NCBI RefSeq assembly: GCF_000317145.1
Contig: NC_019697.1
Coordinates: 3,320,385 to 3,384,384, forward strand
Source of the DNA: Chamaesiphon minutus PCC 6605
GTDB lineage: Bacteria > Cyanobacteriota > Cyanobacteriia > Cyanobacteriales > Chamaesiphonaceae
Direction: 5' to 3'
Length of the DNA: 64,000 bases
The translations under genes and the position numbers were made by a program. Shown in pieces: positions 11,961 through 55,445 of this stretch. The notes under the pieces were generated by a model that ran no database searches, was not told the DNA's origin, and saw only the letters and a program-made list of their open reading frames with translations. The stretch's first letter is position 1. The number at the start of each line of letters is the position of its first letter.

Positions 11961-12739
11961 ATGTCGAACTTAGATACTGGCGATCGACTATTAGGTGCAG
12001 GCAACTTTGCTGAAGCGATCGCCTGTTACGATCTGATTATCGAAATCGATCCGTTTCAGCATCATGCCTGGTACGGTCGCGGTCTTGCCCTCGCTCGATC
12101 CGCAAAATATCGCGAAGCAATCGAGAGTTTTGATTGCGCGCTAAATATCCAGCCAAATGAAGAGATGGCTTGGATAAATCGCGGCACTGCGTTTGGCATC
12201 CTCGGCGAATTTACCCAAGCACTTGCTAGTTTCGATTTAGCTCTAAAAATTAACGCATATAACAGTGAAGCTTTATATGGCAGAGGTTTGGCTTTAAATC
12301 AGTTAGGGCGAAATACCGAATCGCTGGCTAGTTACGAGCGCGCTGTCAAAATCGATTCAGACAACTATAAAGCTTGGCATAATCGCGGCGTACTGCTTAA
12401 CGAGCTGACCAGATATCAAGACGCGATCGACTGTTTCGATCGCGCTCTAGCCGTCAATCCAGATTTATATCAAGCTTGGCAAAGTCGGACTCTTTCATTA
12501 CTGAATTTAGAGCGATATGCGGAAGCAATTATTAATTGCGATCGGTTACTTGCACTCGAACCAAACAATCCAGAAGCGTTTTATCAACGCGGGATTGCAT
12601 TGAGTATGTTGACTAGATATGATGAAGCAATTATCGATTTCGATCTGGCCTTGCAAATCGATAGTGGTTATTATTTAGCTTGGAAAAATCGCGGCTATGC
12701 CCTCGATCGATTGGCGCGACATTCAGAAGCACTGGCTAG
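11961..12739 (+). pseudogene. TPR protein, 5' part, split by insertion sequence
   Basis: Tandem tetratricopeptide repeats (about 34 residues each, with the W..G.AL....A..SYD.AL pattern) run from the start of this frame to position 12739, where the IS begins after EALAS. The frame then reads only eight residues into the IS. The missing part resumes after the IS at 15528 with SHDRSLAIEPND, exactly in frame once the IS and one CTAG copy are removed. The intact gene would encode about 412 residues with roughly ten TPRs, a soluble protein-interaction scaffold. As it stands, a truncated TPR protein of 267 residues could still be made. Confidence 0.9.
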
Positions 12740-13302
12740 CAGCCTGTCGGAGAAACACATTTAATCCCCATTAATCGATGCAAACGTCTGAAATTGTAGG
12801 CGAGGCAGACAAGATTCCATTCTCCGGCTGCTTTGGTCAAGCCTCTTAAAGAGAACTGGCGAAACCCTATTGTTTCTTTGATAATACCAATAATCGGTTC
12901 GACGGTACACTTTCGTAACCGATAAAATGCTCTTCCTTCATCGGTTTGCAGCTTGTATGCCATCTGTGCTTTCAGTGTTGCCGCTGCCACTGGTGGATCT
13001 GGTTGTTGTGACAATATAGTTTGCCAATAATCCTGATGAGAATGCCGCCCGGTAGCTATGTATGGCTCAATTTGACGTGTCTCCAAACCCTCAATATTAG
13101 TCACGCTGAAGTAGCCAGTATCTAATGCTGCTCGCTTGGGCTTGCCGACTCTACGATCGATCGCATCGACAGTTGGTAGTGCATCAAGTTGGTCATTAGG
13201 ATGATTGGATAGAGTGTTGGAAATAATTAATAAAGCTTGATGCTCGATCGCAATCTGACCATTATAATGCTGGTCAAAGCCTTTGTTACCACTATTTTTC
13301 AT
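12736..13302 (-). CDS. Transposase ORF B (C-terminal DDE part), IS copy 1
   Basis: A 188-residue frame holding the second half of an IS1182-like DDE transposase. It includes MKNSGNKGFDQHYNGQIA, AALDTGYFS and the terminal YRLRKCTVEPIIGIIKETIGFRQF block that carries the catalytic Glu. It is identical in sequence to ORF B of copy 2 (18652-19218). The stop codon TAG lies in the CTAG target duplication just outside the element. Its own ATG overlaps the stop of ORF A, but a -1 frameshift at 13353-13364 would fuse the two. In this copy ORF A is broken, so no working transposase is expected. Confidence 0.85.
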   Translation of the reverse strand: MKNSGNKGFDQHYNGQIAIEHQALLIISNTLSNHPNDQLDALPTVDAIDRRVGKPKRAALDTGYFSVTNIEGLETRQIEPYIATGRHSHQDYWQTILSQQPDPPVAAATLKAQMAYKLQTDEGRAFYRLRKCTVEPIIGIIKETIGFRQFSLRGLTKAAGEWNLVCLAYNFRRLHRLMGIKCVSPTGC

Positions 13303-14184
13303 GATCCGTGATTGAGGATCGGTGAAATTGTATTGCGCTCGATCGGTGATGGCAAAAAAGGGGGTGATGGAACCCTTCCGCTCGGCTTTTTCCCTGTTTT
13401 TTCAATATATGCTGCTCGTTCTGCCATTTTTTCAACGTATTTAGACTGGTCTAATTCGTATTGCTCTTGCGCTCGATTATGTAATTCTTGTTTTGCCTTC
13501 TCAAGATGAGCTAATCGCTCCTTCCTCCGCGCAATTTCGGCAACAACATCGACTTCTTTGTCTATCTTAATTCCATCTGCTTTTTGACCCAATTTTATCA
13601 ATTTTTCCACTTCCGTTCGTAATTGCATCTGAATTTCTTCTAAACGTTTGTGGCTCACTGCCTTACTTTTGGACGCATCTGCGTGAATCTTTGTCCCATC
13701 AACACTAATGTCTTCAACTTTCAATACATTAGCTGCAACTGCCATTTCCAATATTTGTACAAATAGTTCTTTAATCTGTTCTAGAAATCTACTCCTAAAG
13801 TTGGCAATCGTATCATGGTCTGGATGTAAGTTACCAGCTATAAATCGAACTGGCATTGATTCGTAGCTCGCTTTTTCCAATCCTCGCGAACTAAAGATTC
13901 CAGTCGCGTAACCGTATACAAGCATTCCTAACAAAATTTCTGGTGCAATTGGTGTTCCACCCCTTGGCTCCATATGCACTATAAATACTACTGAGGTCGA
14001 GTTGAGCGATCGTTTGCACTACAAATCGGGCAAGATGGTCTGGTGGCAAGCATTCTTCGATACTCACTGTTTGTTTTAGCATTGCCTCGTAATCTACCGT
14101 TTTGAATTTCCGCACCAATCGTTTTACCCTTAGTAACCTGAGTTCGATGAGGCATAGCCTCATCGAACTCAGATGTGACAACAT
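13299..14184 (-). pseudogene. Transposase ORF A, IS copy 1, frameshifted
   Basis: The N-terminal part of the transposase is in two frames here. One (13891-14184) begins with sequence from the nested IS end and gives VRKFKTVDYEAM to YSAYGAKG; the other (13299-13979) resumes at GGTPIAPEILLGMLVYGY. The break is a single extra C relative to copy 2, in the run near 13956-13962. The nested IS982 insertion at 14135/15476 also separates the gene from its original leader. Both lesions make this copy inactive. Confidence 0.85.
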
Positions 14185-18611: not shown

Positions 18612-18651
18612 GATCTGCCTCCATTCGGACGTTCATTTAGGTAACTTCTGA

Positions 18652-19218
18652 CTAGCAGCCTGTCGGAGAAACACATTTAATCCCCATTAATCGATGCAAA
18701 CGTCTGAAATTGTAGGCGAGGCAGACAAGATTCCATTCTCCGGCTGCTTTGGTCAAGCCTCTTAAAGAGAACTGGCGAAACCCTATTGTTTCTTTGATAA
18801 TACCAATAATCGGTTCGACGGTACACTTTCGTAACCGATAAAATGCTCTTCCTTCATCGGTTTGCAGCTTGTATGCCATCTGTGCTTTCAGTGTTGCCGC
18901 TGCCACTGGTGGATCTGGTTGTTGTGACAATATAGTTTGCCAATAATCCTGATGAGAATGCCGCCCGGTAGCTATGTATGGCTCAATTTGACGTGTCTCC
19001 AAACCCTCAATATTAGTCACGCTGAAGTAGCCAGTATCTAATGCTGCTCGCTTGGGCTTGCCGACTCTACGATCGATCGCATCGACAGTTGGTAGTGCAT
19101 CAAGTTGGTCATTAGGATGATTGGATAGAGTGTTGGAAATAATTAATAAAGCTTGATGCTCGATCGCAATCTGACCATTATAATGCTGGTCAAAGCCTTT
19201 GTTACCACTATTTTTCAT
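18652..19218 (-). CDS. Transposase ORF B, IS copy 2
   Basis: The 188-residue C-terminal half of the IS1182-like transposase. The last codons run through the terminal inverted repeat, and the TAG stop is in the CTAG target duplication at 18652-18655. Its ATG overlaps the stop of ORF A (ATGA), but in-frame sequence upstream of the ATG reads QYNFTDPQSRIM, which is the segment that normally precedes MKNSGNKGF in this family. A -1 slip at 19269-19280 would give a single protein of about 460 residues, the usual length. Confidence 0.87.
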   Translation of the reverse strand: MKNSGNKGFDQHYNGQIAIEHQALLIISNTLSNHPNDQLDALPTVDAIDRRVGKPKRAALDTGYFSVTNIEGLETRQIEPYIATGRHSHQDYWQTILSQQPDPPVAAATLKAQMAYKLQTDEGRAFYRLRKCTVEPIIGIIKETIGFRQFSLRGLTKAAGEWNLVCLAYNFRRLHRLMGIKCVSPTGC

Positions 19219-20092
19219 GATCCGTGATTGAGGATCGGTGAAATTGTATTGCGCTCGATCGGTGATGGCAAAAAAGGGGGTGATGGAACCCTTCCGCTCG
19301 GCTTTTTCCCTGTTTTTTCAATATATGCTGCTCGTTCTGCCATTTTTTCAACGTATTTAGACTGGTCTAATTCGTATTGCTCTTGCGCTCGATTATGTAA
19401 TTCTTGTTTTGCCTTCTCAAGATGAGCTAATCGCTCCTTCCTCCGCGCAATTTCGGCAACAACATCGACTTCTTTGTCTATCTTAATTCCATCTGCTTTT
19501 TGACCCAATTTTATCAATTTTTCCACTTCCGTTCGTAATTGCATCTGAATTTCTTCTAAACGTTTGTGGCTCACTGCCTTACTTTTGGACGCATCTGCGT
19601 GAATCTTTGTCCCATCAACACTAATGTCTTCAACTTTCAATACATTAGCTGCAACTGCCATTTCCAATATTTGTACAAATAGTTCTTTAATCTGTTCTAG
19701 AAATCTACTCCTAAAGTTGGCAATCGTATCATGGTCTGGATGTAAGTTACCAGCTATAAATCGAACTGGCATTGATTCGTAGCTCGCTTTTTCCAATCCT
19801 CGCGAACTAAAGATTCCAGTCGCGTAACCGTATACAAGCATTCCTAACAAAATTTCTGGTGCAATTGGTGTTCCACCCTTGGCTCCATATGCACTATAAA
19901 TACTACTGAGGTCGAGTTGAGCGATCGTTTGCACTACAAATCGGGCAAGATGGTCTGGTGGCAAGCATTCTTCGATACTCACTGTTTGTTTTAGCATTGC
20001 CTCGTAATCTACCGTTTTGAATTTCCGCACCAATCGTTTTACCCTTAGTAGTCTCCCGATCCTAACCGAAAAATCTTATCTCCGACAGGCTG
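18656..20092 (-). mobile_element. IS1182/IS5-like element, copy 2 (intact)
   Basis: 1437 bp with 14-bp perfect inverted repeats (18656-18669 and 20079-20092) and CTAG duplications at 18652-18655 and 20093-20096. It is inserted between the GFA gene and the pentapeptide gene. No lesion is seen other than the ORF A/ORF B frame change shared with copy 1, which looks programmed. It provides the reference for the nested insertion in copy 1. Confidence 0.93.
19215..20033 (-). CDS. Transposase ORF A, IS copy 2
   Basis: A 272-residue N-terminal part of an IS1182-like transposase. It contains the DUF772-type region (GGTPIAPEILLGMLVYGYATGIFSSR), FRSRFLEQIKELFVQIL, the catalytic Asp in VEDISVDGTKIHADASKSK and a long charged coiled-coil segment. 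The start is TTG 20033 or GTG 20030. The frame passes through the heptamer T TTT TTG inside CCCCCTTTTTTG (complement of 19269-19280) and then ends at 19215 in unrelated sequence, while the conserved continuation is in the -1 frame. Confidence 0.87.
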   Translation of the reverse strand: MVRKFKTVDYEAMLKQTVSIEECLPPDHLARFVVQTIAQLDLSSIYSAYGAKGGTPIAPEILLGMLVYGYATGIFSSRGLEKASYESMPVRFIAGNLHPDHDTIANFRSRFLEQIKELFVQILEMAVAANVLKVEDISVDGTKIHADASKSKAVSHKRLEEIQMQLRTEVEKLIKLGQKADGIKIDKEVDVVAEIARRKERLAHLEKAKQELHNRAQEQYELDQSKYVEKMAERAAYIEKTGKKPSGRVPSPPFLPSPIERNTISPILNHGS

Positions 20093-23969: not shown

Positions 23970-24599
23970 TCAATCCGTGTAAATACTTAGATCTCGATCG
24001 ATAGCCTTCAACCACTGGGGATAACCGCTGGAAATTGACGATTTAGAGATAGTTTGTGGATAGCTAACTAGCAACGCTCGCACGATTGGCAAAAACTGTC
24101 GATCGATACTTATGTTATCGCCTAAATATTCACAGGCAATCGTCCACCAGGCTTGCCCGCACAGTTGTAAGGTTGTAAGTTCGATTGCTGCTGCATTCTT
24201 TCTGGGCGTACTAATTGGTATTAACTTAAGAGGATCGCTAAACTCGACGCGATAAAACCGTTGCTGGCGGACTTTATCGACTTGAATCCACCCTTGTTTC
24301 CTCGTTGCTGGCGCATGTGCGGATCGATCGTGACAAATCCATTTCGACCATTGCTCGATGTTACTTTCTCCAAACCTATCTATGTCTATTTTATCAAATT
24401 GCTGCTGGAGATGTTTGACTTCCAAGTTGCCCTGGCGAATTTTGATACCGACTTCAGGAGAGCTAGACTGGAGGTAAAAATCGGTACGCGCATCAGCGTC
24501 TGTACCGTTCGATCCTAATGTATCAAACCAGTTGGCGATCTCTGCTGGTAAATCCCCTCGATAAAACCACCGCAATTCGATCGTCTGAGTACCATTCAT
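23970..24599 (-). CDS. Hypothetical protein, possibly CYTH-like
   Basis: About 209 residues from ATG 24599 (AGGTG lies upstream; a GTG at 24611 is the alternative). It opens IELRWFYRGDLPAEIANWF and has DFYLQSSSPEVGIKIRQGNLEVKHLQ, a pattern of alternating charged beta strands reminiscent of CYTH/triphosphate-tunnel proteins, but the ExExK signature is not clear. Cys and Trp residues near the middle are conserved-looking. The function is not known. It contains normal CGATCG sites, so it belongs to the resident genome, unlike its neighbour. Confidence 0.55.
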   Translation of the reverse strand: MNGTQTIELRWFYRGDLPAEIANWFDTLGSNGTDADARTDFYLQSSSPEVGIKIRQGNLEVKHLQQQFDKIDIDRFGESNIEQWSKWICHDRSAHAPATRKQGWIQVDKVRQQRFYRVEFSDPLKLIPISTPRKNAAAIELTTLQLCGQAWWTIACEYLGDNISIDRQFLPIVRALLVSYPQTISKSSISSGYPQWLKAIDRDLSIYTD

Positions 24600-24619
24600 T
24601 TTAATTAACACCTATTGCC

Positions 24620-24952
24620 ATGAACGAAGATTTGCAAAAGCTACATCTGGAAGCTGGATTGAAAGTCGGTAAAGACAAGACTTGTGGCAATAAAATCGAT
24701 TATGAATCGGAAGATACAGCAGCGATAGTATTTACAACCTTGATGCTGTTAGGTTTCGTGCTTAAAACCAATCTACATACTGAATGCCGTTACGTTGGCA
24801 AAACCATTATTAGTTTTGATGGTAGCCTTGAAACCAGATGTGTTCAGTTCTCAGTTTGGGTTGCTGAGACTGCCAAAATCTACAAATATCTACAAAAGAA
24901 CATCCTAACTACTGCTAAGATAACTGAATGCAGCGTGTACATTAATCATTAA
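24620..24952 (+). CDS. Unknown 110-residue protein ahead of the R-M operon
   Basis: A small soluble protein (MNEDLQKLHLEAGLKVGKDK at its start). No helix-turn-helix, membrane segment or known domain is recognised. It ends 13 nt before the methyltransferase ATG and, like the two R-M genes, has no CGATCG, so it probably arrived with them and may be co-transcribed. By position it could be a controller or accessory protein of the R-M system, but it does not look like a classic C protein. Real coding is likely but not certain. Confidence 0.5.
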   Translation: MNEDLQKLHLEAGLKVGKDKTCGNKIDYESEDTAAIVFTTLMLLGFVLKTNLHTECRYVGKTIISFDGSLETRCVQFSVWVAETAKIYKYLQKNILTTAKITECSVYINH

Positions 24953-24965
24953 AAGTTTCAGTGAC

Positions 24966-26246
24966 ATGAATAGACCTATCGGAATTGACCTGTTTGCAGG
25001 AGCTGGAGGAATGTCCTTAGGTTTCGAGCAAGCTGGCTTTGATGTTGTCGCAGCAGTAGAAATCGATCCAATTCACTGTGCGACGCATGAATATAACTTC
25101 CCGCTGTCTGCTACGATTTGTGCCAGTGTCATCGATCTCACTGGAGATGAAATTCGCAGTCGAGCAAAATTAGACGATAAAGATATTGATGTAGTGTTTG
25201 GTGGCGCACCTTGTCAAGGTTTCTCTTTGATGGGTAAAAGGGTTTTTGAAGACCCGCGCAATCAACTCGTGTTTCATTATGTAAGACTAGTTCGAGAATT
25301 AAATCCAAAATATTGTGTTTTTGAAAATGTTAAAGGTCTTACCCTTGGCAAACACGCACAGTTTCTGGATGAACTGATTACTGCTTTGGGGGATGCTGGC
25401 TATACAGTGTTGACGCCTTACAAAGTGTTGAATGCCGCAGATTATGGTGTTCCACAAGATAGACGACGGCTATTTTTAATAGGTGCTCGAAAGGATATGA
25501 AATTACCTGAGTACCCAAAACCCAACCAAGACAGAGTAACTGTCCTAGAAGCTATCGGTGATTTACCTGATGCAGATCGTTTCGACGATCTATGGGGAAC
25601 AGATACTATCTCGTACCAATGGGAGACAAAGAGCACATATGCCAGGAAATTAAGAGGTTTCGAGCGAGATCCTGATGATTATAGCTATCCGCGAAAGTTT
25701 TCGCCTGAAATGCTCACATGTAGCTTGAGAACTCAACACACGCAATCTTCTCGTAGTCGATTTGAAGCCACATTACCAGGCAAAACTGAATCGATTAGTC
25801 GATTTCGCAAGCTTGAGCCAAATGGCATTTGTAATACCTTACGGGCTGGTACGGATAGTGCTAGAGGGGCGCATACATCGCCGCGTCCGATTCATCCCTG
25901 GTTCCCGCGCGTGATTACCGTGCGGGAGGCGGCGAGATTACATTCTTATCCTGACTGGTTCCGTCTTCACTCTACGAAGTGGCATGGTTGTCGTCAAATT
26001 GGAAATAGCGTTCCACCCCTGTTAGCACGAGCTGTTGCTAGCGAACTCATAAAAGCACAAGAAATTAGTCCTACCCAGCCAAAAAAAGTTCTCAATCCAG
26101 GTGAAGTTCGCTTATTGTCTTTGGACATGAGTAATGCATCAGCGTATTTTAAAGTCCCAAGAGATACAATCGCACAGCGCACACGAAAACTATCTGTAAT
26201 AGAAGAAGCTTTAGAGAAAGAAGTGAAGGAAGAAGTTTATGCCTAA
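24966..26246 (+). CDS. DNA (cytosine-5) methyltransferase of a type II R-M system
   Basis: A 426-residue enzyme that transfers a methyl group from SAM to C5 of cytosine in a specific site. Motif I DLFAGAGG (8-15), motif IV GGAPCQGFS with catalytic Cys83, motif VI ENV (120-122), motif VIII QDRRR and motif X GNSVPP are all present in order. The target recognition domain lies between about 200 and 300. The C-terminus (about 360-426) extends past motif X with a helical region. It overlaps the endonuclease gene by 8 nt. The recognised sequence cannot be predicted by eye. Confidence 0.95.
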   Translation: MNRPIGIDLFAGAGGMSLGFEQAGFDVVAAVEIDPIHCATHEYNFPLSATICASVIDLTGDEIRSRAKLDDKDIDVVFGGAPCQGFSLMGKRVFEDPRNQLVFHYVRLVRELNPKYCVFENVKGLTLGKHAQFLDELITALGDAGYTVLTPYKVLNAADYGVPQDRRRLFLIGARKDMKLPEYPKPNQDRVTVLEAIGDLPDADRFDDLWGTDTISYQWETKSTYARKLRGFERDPDDYSYPRKFSPEMLTCSLRTQHTQSSRSRFEATLPGKTESISRFRKLEPNGICNTLRAGTDSARGAHTSPRPIHPWFPRVITVREAARLHSYPDWFRLHSTKWHGCRQIGNSVPPLLARAVASELIKAQEISPTQPKKVLNPGEVRLLSLDMSNASAYFKVPRDTIAQRTRKLSVIEEALEKEVKEEVYA

Positions 26247-27039
26247 AGCAAAACAGCGAGAGCCTAATCGCTATGAAACGATAATCCTTCGCTTGTTTGA
26301 GAATCATTATACTCAAGGTCTTACTGAATTTGAATTTACTAGAGACGAGATTGAAAGTATCTCTAAAATATTAAATATTAAGTTACCTAAAAATATTGGT
26401 GATGTCATATATACTTTTCGATATCGAAGTAAACTCCCTGAAAAAATTCAGGATACTGCAAATCCAGGACTTGAATGGATTATCCTAGGAGCAGGAAATG
26501 CTTGCTATCGTTTTATTCAGTTCAAATTAAATCCCATAATACCAAGAGATGAGTTAGTAACCATCAAAATCCCAGATTCAACACCAGAAATTATCACGGC
26601 ATATGCATTGAGTGATGAGCAAGCTTTGCTAGCAAAAGTAAGATACAACAGACTTGTTGATGTCTTTTTAGGTATTACAGCATTTTCGCTGCAAAATCAC
26701 CTAAGAACAACGGTAGAAAGTATTGGGCAAATTGAAATTGATGAAATATATGTAGGAATAGATCGATATGGAAGACAGTTTATTGTTCCCGTCCAAGCAA
26801 AAGGAGGCAAGGACAAGCATAGCGTGGTTCAAACATTACAAGATCTAACTTACTGTGCCGAAAAATTTCCCGATCTGATATGCAAAGCAGTTTCAGCACA
26901 ATTCATGAGTGAAGGTCGTATCGCTATGTTTGAACTTTTACGTGAAGGTAATGAAGTTAAAGTAGTTGAAGAAAAACATTATCGACTAGTTCCTTCTTCT
27001 GATATTTATAAAGAGGATCTTCGTAACTATTCACGGTAA
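26239..27039 (+). CDS. Type II restriction endonuclease, PD-(D/E)XK-like
   Basis: A 266-residue protein encoded immediately after, and overlapping, the methyltransferase. The segment from residue 166, EIDEIYVGIDRYGRQFIVPV then QAKGGKDK, fits a PD-(D/E)XK nuclease core with Asp168 and Gln186-Ala-Lys188 as the likely catalytic set. Linkage to a C5 methyltransferase supports the assignment as the cognate endonuclease. The reading frame is intact, so restriction may be active. No CGATCG occurs in either gene. Specificity unknown. Confidence 0.85.
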   Translation: MPKAKQREPNRYETIILRLFENHYTQGLTEFEFTRDEIESISKILNIKLPKNIGDVIYTFRYRSKLPEKIQDTANPGLEWIILGAGNACYRFIQFKLNPIIPRDELVTIKIPDSTPEIITAYALSDEQALLAKVRYNRLVDVFLGITAFSLQNHLRTTVESIGQIEIDEIYVGIDRYGRQFIVPVQAKGGKDKHSVVQTLQDLTYCAEKFPDLICKAVSAQFMSEGRIAMFELLREGNEVKVVEEKHYRLVPSSDIYKEDLRNYSR

Positions 27040-27089
27040 AGTTATCTATACACGTATGATTTTTATATAATTATATGTTTATTTGAATA

Positions 27090-28352
27090 ATGACTACCAT
27101 TCAACCGATCGATATTATTATCCTCTCTAATGGCCCTGGTGAAGTCACTACATGGGTGCGTCCGGTGGTCAAAGCCTTGCGCGATCGATTGGGTGAGGAT
27201 CGGAGCGAGATTCGGATTTCGGCGATTTTGGTACCATGTCCGAATGCTAGTGGTAAAGAAGTCCAGATTTTAAAAAGTTATCCACAGATCGATCGAGTTC
27301 AAGGTGCCGAGCATTTTACGAAGTTTCTATTATGGGGTAAAACCGAACAAGATTGGGATTGGCGATCGCGTGGCATAATTATTTTTTTAGGTGGCGATCA
27401 ATTTTTTCCAGTTGTCATCGGCAAACGATTGGGTTATCAAACAGTTGTTTATGCTGAATGGGAAGCCCGATGGCACAATTTAATCGATCGATTTGCAGTT
27501 ATGAATGCTGAAGTTACGGCAAAAGTGAAGCCGCAATATCTCGATCGATTTACTATTGTTGGTGACTTGATGGTAGAGAGTCAAAATAATTTAAGTTCTG
27601 AATCAGCCGATCGCGAAAACGATCCCATTTTAATCGGATTATTACCTGGCTCTAAGGCAGCAAAATTGGCAATGGGATTGCCATTAATGCTAGCGATCGC
27701 CGAATATATTCAAGCTGCTAATCCTCAAGTAAAATTTGCCATTCCCGTCGCACCGACGCTGGATCTGACCACTCTGGCTAGTTATGCCGATCCGACCATA
27801 AATCCCGTAATTGCGCTAGTTAATGGTGCCACCGCAACATTAGAACAGAGCCAAACAACGCCTTATCTCCAGACAGCTTCGGGGTTGCAAGTATCATTAC
27901 ATCCTGAATTTCCAGCTTACCATCTGCTCTCGCAATGTACCATTTGTTTGACCGCGATCGGGGCAAATACGGCTGAATTAGGGGCGTTAGGCGTACCGAT
28001 GATAGTTTTAACCGCTACCCAACAAATTGATGCCATGCGCGCCTGGGATGGGAGTTTGGGCATCTTAGTTAATTTACCGCTAGTCGGGACACCGATCGCC
28101 AAAATTATTAATACCATCCTGTACCGTAAATTTAGCACGCGAAAATTAGCATGGCCGAATATTTGGGCGCAACGCGAGATCGTCCCCGAATTATTCGGTC
28201 GGCTAGAGGCAAAAACTGTCGCCGAATTTACACTCGACTATCTCCATCATCCCGAAAAATTAGCTACGATGAGATCGGATTTACGTCAAGTTCGCGGCGC
28301 AGCAGGTGCCGCAGCCAAATTAGCCGCGATCGTCGATGATTTACGGTCGTGA
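27090..28352 (+). CDS. Lipid-A-disaccharide synthase-related glycosyltransferase
   Basis: A 420-residue GT-B-like protein of the LpxB-related cyanobacterial family. It starts IDIIILSNGPGEVTTWVRPVVKAL; a central GLLPGSKAAKLAMGLPLMLAIAEY matches the LpxB GSR-like segment, and the C-terminal half has the donor-binding-like LTAIGANTAELGALGVPMIVL. Its distance from true LpxB leaves the substrate open; this is a conserved cyanobacterial gene often annotated only as LpxB-like. It begins 50 nt after the R-M operon, where CGATCG becomes frequent again. Confidence 0.75.
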   Translation: MTTIQPIDIIILSNGPGEVTTWVRPVVKALRDRLGEDRSEIRISAILVPCPNASGKEVQILKSYPQIDRVQGAEHFTKFLLWGKTEQDWDWRSRGIIIFLGGDQFFPVVIGKRLGYQTVVYAEWEARWHNLIDRFAVMNAEVTAKVKPQYLDRFTIVGDLMVESQNNLSSESADRENDPILIGLLPGSKAAKLAMGLPLMLAIAEYIQAANPQVKFAIPVAPTLDLTTLASYADPTINPVIALVNGATATLEQSQTTPYLQTASGLQVSLHPEFPAYHLLSQCTICLTAIGANTAELGALGVPMIVLTATQQIDAMRAWDGSLGILVNLPLVGTPIAKIINTILYRKFSTRKLAWPNIWAQREIVPELFGRLEAKTVAEFTLDYLHHPEKLATMRSDLRQVRGAAGAAAKLAAIVDDLRS

Positions 28353-43576: not shown

Positions 43577-45561
43577 AAGATTTTATAGGTGCCATTATCG
43601 GCAAATGTGTGGGTGATATCTCGTCCGCTAATTGGGTTGAAACCATCGCCGAAGTTCCAAGTGTAGGTTAGTGAGTCGTTAATGCCGGGATCGGTAGCGG
43701 TGGCACTAAATTGAGCAAAGGTGCCTTCGTTAATGCTAGTGGTGGGTGCGGTAACGGTGCCGATGGTGGGAGCGACGTTGTTAACGGTGACGTTGACGGT
43801 TTGGGTGGCAATGCCGCCGTTACTGTCGAGGACTTCAAGTTTGACGGGATAGCTGCCATTATCGCTGAAGGTGTAATCGATTCAGCAAAGCTGACGCTAC
43901 GCGAACGATCGTCCTTCGATTGGTGTAGTTGCACCGTTAATATACCAGCGGTAGGTGAGGCTTGCACTGAGCGAAGTCGAAGTGGGATCGTTACCGATGT
44001 CGGTGGCGGTGGCGGTGAGGGTGGCGATGGTTCCTTCGGTGATGTTGTTGGGGATGGTAATGGTTTGGATGGTGGGTGGGAGGTTGTTGATGGTAAGGTT
44101 GACGGTGGCGAGGTTGGAGACTTGTCCGTCAGAGCCGAAGCCGATGTATTTGAAGCTATCGTTACCGACGTAGGTGGGGGTGGGTTGGTAGGTGATTTTG
44201 CCGTCGGGGGTTTGGGTTAGTGTGCCGTGGGTAGGTTGGGTGAGGATTTGGATCTGAGCGACGTTGGTGTCGTTGGTGGTGGGGTTGAAGGTGAGGGGGG
44301 TGTTTTGATTGGTGGTGAGGGTGTCGTTGTTGGTGACAGGTATAGGTTGGGTGTCGGTGAAGAGTTTTACATCGTCGATGGTGACGGTGCTGGTTCTGGC
44401 ACCGAAGCCGAGGAGGTTGAAGTAGAGAGTTGCGTTGGTTGAGGGGGTGATTTGGGTGAGATCGATCGTGACGATGCTACTGTTGTTGCCCAGAGCGGTG
44501 ATGGTGACTTTATCGCTCTTATGGATGGTGCCGTTGGCTTGGATGTTGAGGAGGGAGTCGGTGTGGTTTAAGCCGATGCTGGTTCCGGCGAGGGGGTCGA
44601 AGGTGTTGGTGTCTATTAGTGCAACTTCAAAGGCATCGTTGGCGGTTTTAGAGGTGTCTCCGGTAACGAGGTGGTTATCTTTGATGGTGAATTGGAGGGT
44701 TTTTGCGCCAGTTGGGATGATGAAGGCTTGGGTGAGTTCGGAGAGTTTTTGGGACTGTTCGGTGAGGGTGGCGGTGCCGTTGATGATGTTGGTGGCACCT
44801 GCGGTGTTCCAGGTGGTGGGGGTGGTGAAGTCGCCGTTGGTGATGCCGATAAGTGCGCCTGCGGTGAGGTGGGCGGGGTTGACTGTGCCGACACCCGACA
44901 CCCGACCCCCTACACCCACATTAATGGCATTAAGAATAGCTAGATCTAGGGTCGAAGGAAGTTTGCGAACGCCAGGTTTGAGGCTGGTGTTCATGAGGTC
45001 GTAGGGGTAGAGGGTGCTGTCGAGGTGGGAGCCGTCTGGGGTGAGGGTGGCAGTGAAGGTGTTGGTGGTGAAGATGCCGTTGTTGATGTGTTTGTCGAAT
45101 TCGCTGTAGCCGTTGATGATGCCGAGGGTGTGACCCATTTCGTGGAGGATGGCGGTGAGGAGGTCGTATTTACCGGAAGCTGGGCTGTCGGGGGTGGCTT
45201 GGAAGTAGGTATCTATTCCGGTGAATTCGCTATTGTCCCCTGGTGTTGTGTCTATGAACCAGCCGACTCCGTTGGCATCGTTGTCGAAGCTGATGGTGGC
45301 TTTGTTGGGACGACCGAGTTGGTCGTAGCCTGTGATGCTGGCTTCGGCTAGTTGTCCGGTGGGGAGGTTGGTGATATCGAAGGTGAGGTTGATGGGGGTG
45401 GTGGGATTTAGAAGGTTATTCCAGATGGTAACTGCGGTAGACTCGACATTAGTTAATTCAGAGGTGTTCAGATGGTTTGGAAGATTACTGCTGAGGAATT
45501 GTTGGCTCGGTATGCTGCTGGAGAACGTAACTTTGCTGGGGTCGATTTGGGAGGAAGTCAT
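43573..45561 (-). pseudogene. Decayed secreted metalloprotease with PKD/cadherin-like domains
   Basis: The frame contains a zinc-protease motif HEMGHTLGIINGYSEFDKH, preceded by a matrixin-like region (ASITGYDQLGRPNKATISFD), then Ig/PKD-like domains (PTHGTLTQTPDGKITYQPTP; LTYTWNFGDGFNP). Two in-frame stops, TAG at 43897-43899 and TGA at 43882-43884, lie in a short inserted repeat-like piece; the same frame then continues through a PKD domain until REP copy A cuts it short in NGTYKIL. The 5' end has no signal peptide: upstream of about 45470 the frame is antisense to a pentapeptide gene. ATG 45561 is the nearest start. I read it as a remnant truncated at both ends. Confidence 0.75.
44889..44916 (+). 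repeat. STRR array inside the metalloprotease reading frame
   Basis: Four 7-mers, CGACACC x2, CGACCCC and CTACACC, in the minus-strand coding sequence, where they encode GVGGRVSGVG. Four units add 28 bp, so the array must have arisen with a compensating change or be ancestral. Confidence 0.6.
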
Positions 45562-45999
45562 TCCAAAAATATTCGTCCCATACTGAGTAACGTTGACTTG
45601 AGAGAGATCGATCTCTGCGGAGCTAACTTGGAAATGATTGATTTTTGTCTCTCCGATTTGTCTGGTGCTAGATTGTTCGGAGCTTGTTTGTCCTATTCCT
45701 ATTTGATTAAAACTAATTTCACTGGGGCTGATTTGCGTTATGCCACTATTGATTGGTCTAATGGAAGAGAGGTTAACTTCACCAATGCCAATATGCAAGG
45801 GATTGATTTGACTACTTCCAACTTTTCTAAAAGTATTTGGTATAGTAATAATCTGAAATCTGCTATCTTGATTCGCACCAACTTGATTGATGCTCAAGGT
45901 TGGCGTAGTGGTAGTGGAGATGCCTATAATGCTCTTCTCTGGGAAACTATTCATCCCAATGGAGATACTACTGAAGGCCCCGAAAGAAGTGAATGGTGA
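45472..45999 (+). CDS. Pentapeptide repeat protein
   Basis: 175 residues beginning MVWKITAEELLARYAAGERN, the typical lead-in of cyanobacterial pentapeptide proteins, then about 20 pentapeptides of the A(D/N)LXX type (DLREIDLCGANL, NFTGADLRYATI), and the characteristic end LLWETIHPNG. The fold is a right-handed beta-helix; function unknown. A long minus-strand frame is open across the whole gene, but its translation there is low-complexity and lacks any domain, so the plus strand is taken as coding. Confidence 0.82.
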   Translation: MVWKITAEELLARYAAGERNFAGVDLGGSHSKNIRPILSNVDLREIDLCGANLEMIDFCLSDLSGARLFGACLSYSYLIKTNFTGADLRYATIDWSNGREVNFTNANMQGIDLTTSNFSKSIWYSNNLKSAILIRTNLIDAQGWRSGSGDAYNALLWETIHPNGDTTEGPERSEW

Positions 46000-55347: not shown

Positions 55348-55403
55348 GGTTTTAATCTCCATATCGATCCAATTGTACTTCTAAGCGATCGCGCATACGA
55401 TTT

Positions 55404-55445
55404 TGGATTTTGGATTTTGGATTTTGGATTGGGGATTGGGGATGT
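55404..55445 (+). repeat. Heptamer STRR, GGATTTT type
   Basis: Tandem GGATTTT units followed by GGATTGG/GGGATTG variants upstream of the PRK-like gene. Confidence 0.65.

Follow-up and report, generated by a model that had tools for sequence, protein, structure and literature searches.

A CGATCG-free restriction-modification gene pair in Chamaesiphon minutus PCC 6605 that probably replaced a solitary methyltransferase gene

Why do a DNA methyltransferase gene and the nuclease gene that directly follows it contain no copy of CGATCG in a genome that is crowded with this word? The cyanobacterial repeat HIP1 has CGATCG as its core; the 6.76-Mb genome of Chamaesiphon minutus PCC 6605 (3 contigs) contains 29,142 copies of this word, vs 1,913 for the word read backwards. 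In the 64-kb window, that is, the whole stretch of 64,000 nucleotides that was analysed, CGATCG occurs 282 times, and dinucleotide shuffles give a mean of 21.6 and a largest value of 32; the window also contains TCGATCGA 51 times vs GCGATCGC 23 times. The preliminary description of this DNA had found no CGATCG from about 24.6 to 27.06 kb and about ten copies in the adjacent LpxB-like gene; we confirm the first claim and count 11 copies for the second. The CGATCG-free stretch extends from 24,584 to 27,105, and the 2,528 bp between the successive sites at 24,578 and 27,106 are the longest CGATCG gap in the window (the runners-up are 1,554 and 1,319 bp). The features of the locus, with window coordinates, are as follows.

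23970..24611, minus strand: native left-flank gene, 213 aa, without a family match (its counterpart in G003, the nearest genome, has the same position and is 84.5% identical; no Pfam match)
24620..24952, plus strand: 110-codon ORF, the 5' portion of a small native gene followed by a remainder that does not belong to that gene, outside the restriction-modification system (from identity to G003)
24723..27085, no strand: inferred replaced segment, CGATCG-free (from blastn against G003 and against congener DNA downstream of the methyltransferase gene)
24909..24921, plus strand: possible extended -10 promoter element of M, CTACTGCTAAGAT (motif before M in the genus)
24966..26246, plus strand: m5C DNA methyltransferase (M), 426 aa, CGATCG group (from PF00145, PADLOC, matches in the genus and trees)
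26239..27039, plus strand: type II restriction endonuclease (R), 266 aa (from a PADLOC match, invariant residues and a structure model)
27090..28352, plus strand: LpxB-like gene, native right flank (in 38 of the 40 genomes searched, its own included)

M matches PF00145 (E 9.3e-71), TIGR00675 (E 2.4e-60) and the PADLOC model MTase_II PDLC03326 (E 3.2e-170), and its best matches in the genomes of the 8 other genus members are 76-85% identical. In a set of 40 genomes of relatives, its own included, 35 contain an M-type match at E<=1e-80 and all 40 contain some m5C match at E 0.001; across the phylum, an M-type match is found in 99 of 386 genomes. The motif CTACTGnTAA(A/G)AT precedes M in all eight aligned genus members (seven congeners and the window; G007 is without upstream DNA) and is degenerate in the family outgroup G010. 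From the general consensus, we take CTACTGCTAAGAT ahead of M to be a possible extended -10 promoter element.

The start of R overlaps the end of M, which comes first, by 8 bp. The ORF is full-length and matches the PADLOC model REase_II PDLC03404 over residues 8-265 (E 1.9e-122); 24 R sequences (the window's and those of 23 relatives) share 54 invariant columns, including D168, E169, Q186 and K188 in the conserved pattern D168-E169...Q186-A-K188. A sequence search of the PDB identified no relatives of R up to E 1. The AlphaFold model (pLDDT 89.4) contains a nuclease-like region at residues 120-251, which is suggestive only; Foldseek returned no match to the model at E<=0.001 (the best, 1.3e-3, was a Cas4-family protein), and VIA-align gave Z scores of 8.0 to EndoMS (96 residues), 7.6 to a Holliday junction resolvase and 7.3 to BsaXI, a level that the tool calls common. 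The matches in this fold search are middling, and the lack of a close one shows nothing. Judged by these features, M and R are a two-gene type II restriction-modification system in which both reading frames are intact and both proteins are predicted to be active.

The target is likely to be CGATCG because M is assigned, from the literature, to the CGATCG m5C group. The cyanobacterial CGATCG m5C methyltransferases and XorII are placed in one group that is associated with high HIP1, and Calothrix PCC 7103 is described as having a broken M beside a broken gene that resembles CGATCG endonucleases (both from sections of PMC4390886); m5C methylation of CGATCG is reported in Anabaena variabilis and Rhodobacter sphaeroides (parts of PMC8112702 and PMC6256690). 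An M-type gene adjoins R in 77 of 80 R loci. At 69 non-cyanobacterial R loci, the flanking DNA is moderately depleted of CGATCG (O/E 0.56, a value that has no R-less control set beside it); the word ranks third to fourth among the most depleted of the 64 palindromes, with GGGCCC and CAGCTG lower. The grouping of M, the broken pair in Calothrix and the depletion in the flanks make CGATCG a very likely target, so that the system very probably recognizes the core of its host's own HIP1 repeat. The preliminary description had put the system's own specificity aside; this specificity very probably is CGATCG.

One explanation for the missing sites is ordinary fluctuation or protein composition, that is, that R and M offer few places for CGATCG. 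A naive Poisson calculation for the 2,368-bp block gives 10.8 expected copies and P(0)=2e-5, but this overstates the case because CGATCG requires particular residues. When the count is restricted to permissive positions, that is, places where the encoded residues would allow CGATCG, the expectation falls to about 6; R is also AT-rich (its GC3 of 0.226 is the lowest among the 44 window ORFs), which again favors fluctuation. Nevertheless, none of the ten permissive positions of the block is used (M 0/6, R 0/3 and the 110-codon ORF 0/1), compared with 181 of 303 in the other window ORFs of at least 150 aa, so the probability is about 1e-4 (3e-4 for M and R alone); and the 0/6 of M stands against 33 of 50 positions used in the M genes of eight congeners (Fisher p 0.003). 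We therefore regard fluctuation as very improbable.

Other parts of the window also attract attention in these counts. Among the 29 window ORFs of at least 260 codons, the sole other CGATCG-free one is a transposase gene (DDE transposase, PF13612; 14294-15181, minus strand), with 0/4 permissive positions used, located in the third-longest CGATCG gap. An insertion sequence is present in two copies (12732-14135 and 18648-20050; 99.86% identical over 1,404 bp) that do contain CGATCG. A gene for a 685-aa protein with a bacterial Ig/cadherin-like domain (43900-45954, minus strand; GC3 0.64) overlaps the second-longest gap and sits in the strongest dinucleotide anomaly of the window (about 42.8-46.6 kb). 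At about 55394-55443 there is a dispersed short repeat of 40-50 bp with many copies in the host genome and in several congeners.

Base composition is weak as proof of foreign origin. The preliminary description had proposed codon usage as a check on recent acquisition; compared with the other window ORFs, M and R are not outliers in their codon-usage scores, and 11% of windows of equal size have a dinucleotide distance at least as large as that of the block. Of these signals, only the GC3 of R is extreme.

M is present in all eight congeners and in one of two further family members, each time with 2-6 copies of CGATCG and without a nuclease match; R has no match in any of these ten genomes (8 other genus and 2 other family members), so the presence of the operon in all close relatives, the pattern that the preliminary description had set against recent acquisition, was not seen. 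The main stretches of G003 are 89-93% identical in DNA to the window, and those of the other seven congeners 68-81% (short repeats apart). Identity to G003 stays at 89.7% as far as 24,722 and is lost there, within the upstream ORF, which puts the left breakpoint at about 24,722/24,723; past this break, the two M genes are 74% identical in DNA. The right breakpoint falls after the R stop codon (27,039) and before about 27,086, the point from which the sequence resembles the congeners' lpxB.

The left breakpoint also identifies the 110-codon ORF as a composite. Its codons 1-36 are 92% identical in protein to G003, in which the intact ORF has 84 codons; the other 74 residues match no protein of the relatives' loci compared at a level above background, and the last part of the ORF overlaps a stretch (24,876-24,922) that is 79-89% identical to the DNA before M in several congeners. 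The ORF has no Pfam, NCBIfam or PADLOC match; a role as controller (C) or helix-turn-helix regulator is unsupported for an ORF that consists of the cut start of a native gene and a remainder without a protein match. Thus, the earlier proposal that a three-gene block was acquired as a unit most likely holds for M and R, which would have arrived together and later than the left flank, and fails for the 110-codon ORF, whose codons 1-36 are native.

The arrangement at the site differs among the congeners. A solitary M lies directly before the lpxB-like gene in G001, G002 and G008; about 1 kb separates the two genes in G004, and they are on separate contigs in G005. In G003, no R follows M, but the contig ends about 400 bp past M; this assembly, which is 93% complete, contains no lpxB match. 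The stretches around M in G006 and G007 contain none of the window's neighbor genes. Both flanks together are found in no relative; the left one is known from G003 and the right one from G001, G002 and G008. The reconstruction of the site thus draws on several genomes, which slightly lowers our confidence in a replacement. Because the congeners carry an M of the same clade there, replacement, not insertion at an empty site, is the most likely event.

A tree of 97 M proteins unites the ten sequences of the genus and family (support 100) within a 47-row clade (support 99). The other members of this clade come mainly from Proteobacteria, some from Verrucomicrobiota and Kiritimatiellota and one from Synergistota, and the clade is separate from the other cyanobacterial M. 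In a tree of 18 rows, the window M groups with those of G006 and G007 (99/96) and the M of G003 with that of G005 (99/98); a clade of the window and G003 is rejected (p-AU 0.0086), and one of the window, G003 and G005 has p 0.036. The 97-protein tree was made by a quick method; the 18-row tree was made carefully, from rows picked by hand, and its hypothesis was tested after the quick tree had been seen. The whole-genome comparison leaves the placement of G005 unsettled. R belongs to a 37-row, mostly proteobacterial clade (98/91) similar in make-up to that of M, and over 82 loci the identities of M and R to the window pair rise together (Spearman 0.76). The identity break at 24,722, the conflict between the M tree and genome kinship, and the position of both genes among mostly proteobacterial relatives support the earlier claim of acquisition for M and R, most likely together and after the left flank.

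These observations also bear on the possibility that the pair is an old resident, that is, that M and R are ancestral in the genus and that R persisted in the window's line but disappeared from every other one, with no recent acquisition. Loss does occur: after M, G007 retains a 60-bp stretch spanning the M-R junction (83% identity), then 47 bp at 74% at the start of R, and G006 retains 18 identical bp at the junction. These sequences are nuclease remnants; a pair of R and this type of M thus existed in the genus, decayed in G006 and G007 and is intact in the window. The adjacency of M and lpxB in G001, G002 and G008 and the DNA immediately before M that is common to the congeners would likewise be expected of an old resident. 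However, the M of G003, a genome about 90% identical elsewhere, is a different one (74% in DNA) and groups with that of G005, the flank identity breaks within the upstream ORF, and an old resident should carry HIP1 as the congeners' M genes do. We consider ancestral residence unlikely.

Two variants of an exchange can be considered. Insertion of R alone beside an unchanged M is disfavored, as M conflicts with genome kinship and misses the sites that the congeners' M genes contain. The opposite direction, in which the M of G003 was replaced instead, would be compatible with the tree alone; we assign the replacement to the window's line, not to that of G003, because the upstream ORF is cut, a nuclease gene is present and HIP1 is missing there, and not because of the tree alone.

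Selection could also have removed the sites, that is, M and R could have been purged of their own target because a cut in them is costly if methylation lapses or the pair enters a new host. All eight congeners, including G006 and G007, have CGATCG at codons 4-6 of M, and the window differs there by one synonymous base, which looks like a loss and counts against short residence; this missing site could reflect loss in the presence of R, not foreign origin. (Nor does the word at codons 4-6 stand out as a conserved element of self-regulation: among the cyanobacterial M genes examined, permissive N-termini are used in 27 of 69 without R and in 4 of 22 with R.) The counts for other cyanobacteria also agree with self-avoidance. 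Solitary M genes (60 loci) use 147 of 329 permissive positions, with 125 expected from their flanks, which is level or slightly above, whereas at 22 R-bearing loci M uses 17 of 94 (27.3 expected) and R uses 3 of 44 (10.9 expected); without three damaged R genes, the values are 17 of 83 for M (23.5 expected, P 0.10) and 3 of 38 for R (8.4 expected, P 0.03), and these P values are rough because some loci are from close relatives. Of the 27 R-bearing loci 22 enter these counts, as do both fragment loci and 60 of the 71 without R; the window, the two duplicate contigs and loci with <20 permissive flank positions were dropped. The label 'intact' for R reflects coverage only and includes the damaged R genes of G235, G329 and G185 and the contigs L072 and L096, which were seen twice. 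The 71 R-less loci are 9 from the genus and family, 60 of the 82 R-less M-bearing genomes and 2 second copies of M in R-bearing genomes (L212 and L213).

In the 69 non-cyanobacterial loci, however, CGATCG is used in 22 of 275 permissive positions in M, 17 of 172 in R and 135 of 1430 in the flanks, that is, without a difference. As long as M is there, an operon free of sites gains no protection, because the host genome carries 29,142 of them, and recent arrival accounts equally well for the cyanobacterial figures. The argument of the preliminary description that avoidance would not be confined to the system's own genes fits both the genome-wide abundance of the word and the lack of avoidance in these 69 loci. 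Short residence would explain the congener, cyanobacterial and non-cyanobacterial figures, and self-avoidance the cyanobacterial ones only; we consider self-avoidance unlikely.

We therefore favor, as probable and as the simplest reading, the explanation that a CGATCG restriction-modification pair replaced the solitary CGATCG methyltransferase gene that is resident in the congeners, and that the pair is CGATCG-free from short residence or from a CGATCG-poor source. M would methylate CGATCG, and R would cut unmethylated copies in incoming DNA, or in the host's own DNA if M fails. The pair would have entered through recombination in the flanks, replacing the solitary M; a host already methylated by that enzyme could accept R unharmed. 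The pair most likely came from another member of the family, one in which M and R were still together. The lack of sites in M and R would then record brief residence in a HIP1-rich genome or a previous host poor in CGATCG. The direction of the replacement, its donor and the reason for the missing sites are the most likely reading of these sequence comparisons.

Outside the genus, R is rarer than M. It has matches in 3 genomes of the 40-genome set (the window's own, G022 and G026) and in 17 of 386 phylum genomes, all 17 of which also contain an M-type match; 12 of the 17 are near full length and without stops, and 5 are damaged. The damaged R genes (G235, G329, G054, G185 and G132) are located near methyltransferases (L159-L168), apparently as restriction-modification systems that are becoming solitary methyltransferases. 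Homologous M-R pairs are also found on mobilizable plasmids, mostly <8 kb, of Klebsiella, Salmonella and other enterobacteria, including L274 and L275; in the small Klebsiella and Salmonella plasmids, M is about 61% and R 55% identical to the window's, and in the enterobacterial plasmid rows listed R is annotated as a hypothetical protein. A search of 50,697 phage records gave no match to R at E<=1e-5.

Why cyanobacteria abound in HIP1 and why its methyltransferases persist are described as open questions (PMC4390886, in the part consulted). The existence of such M-R pairs is not new, because CGATCG restriction endonucleases have already been scored in cyanobacteria (a column in the legend to Figure 5 of PMC4390886, again in part); in the literature found, this paper, as far as the part consulted goes, is the only one that touches on a CGATCG nuclease beside HIP1 methyltransferases. 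At the present locus, the gene for a nuclease with the HIP1 core as its probable target is intact and lies beside an M that appears to have been replaced; because the M of the eight congeners is solitary and two of them have nuclease traces, gain and loss can be traced inside one genus. The locus is also a natural test of whether recently acquired genes gradually take up a word in which their new genome is enriched. A more speculative proposal, which we offer tentatively and think less likely than not, is that HIP1 methylation acts as a standing vaccine: a solitary M would guard 29,000 sites, so a nuclease could be gained without cost and lost without harm, repeatedly, and each gain would make M indispensable; orphan HIP1 methyltransferases would then be the remains of a selfish restriction-modification lineage, replaced allele by allele, and the density of HIP1 in M would be a clock of residence.

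Among known systems, the pair most resembles the CGATCG-specific type II restriction-modification systems (the PvuI isoschizomers, and XorII of Xanthomonas oryzae), with which it shares an m5C methyltransferase of the XorII-containing group and a type II endonuclease gene directly after it; the likeness is drawn from the M group of PMC4390886. It differs in that its host genome carries 29,142 target words. The homologous pair on Paracoccus plasmid p12374 is accompanied by a regulator gene and a vsr gene, neither of which is present at the window locus. DmtC of Anabaena and M.Ssp6803I of Synechocystis, the solitary HIP1 methyltransferases, belong to the same enzyme group according to the literature and have the same predicted target as M; however, the window M has an adjacent intact nuclease gene and so is not solitary, as all eight congeners' M are, and the M proteins of the Chamaesiphonaceae nest in a mostly proteobacterial clade of restriction-modification methyltransferases, not with those of other cyanobacteria. 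Restriction-modification systems that decay and leave solitary methyltransferases are described, for example, in Halobacteria (part of PMC6471742), and the solitary M genes beside nuclease remnants in G006 and G007 and the five damaged R genes among 17 match what that part describes; in contrast to the decay reported there, the word targeted here forms the core of an iterated palindrome of the host itself, and a solitary methyltransferase seems to have given way to an intact pair.
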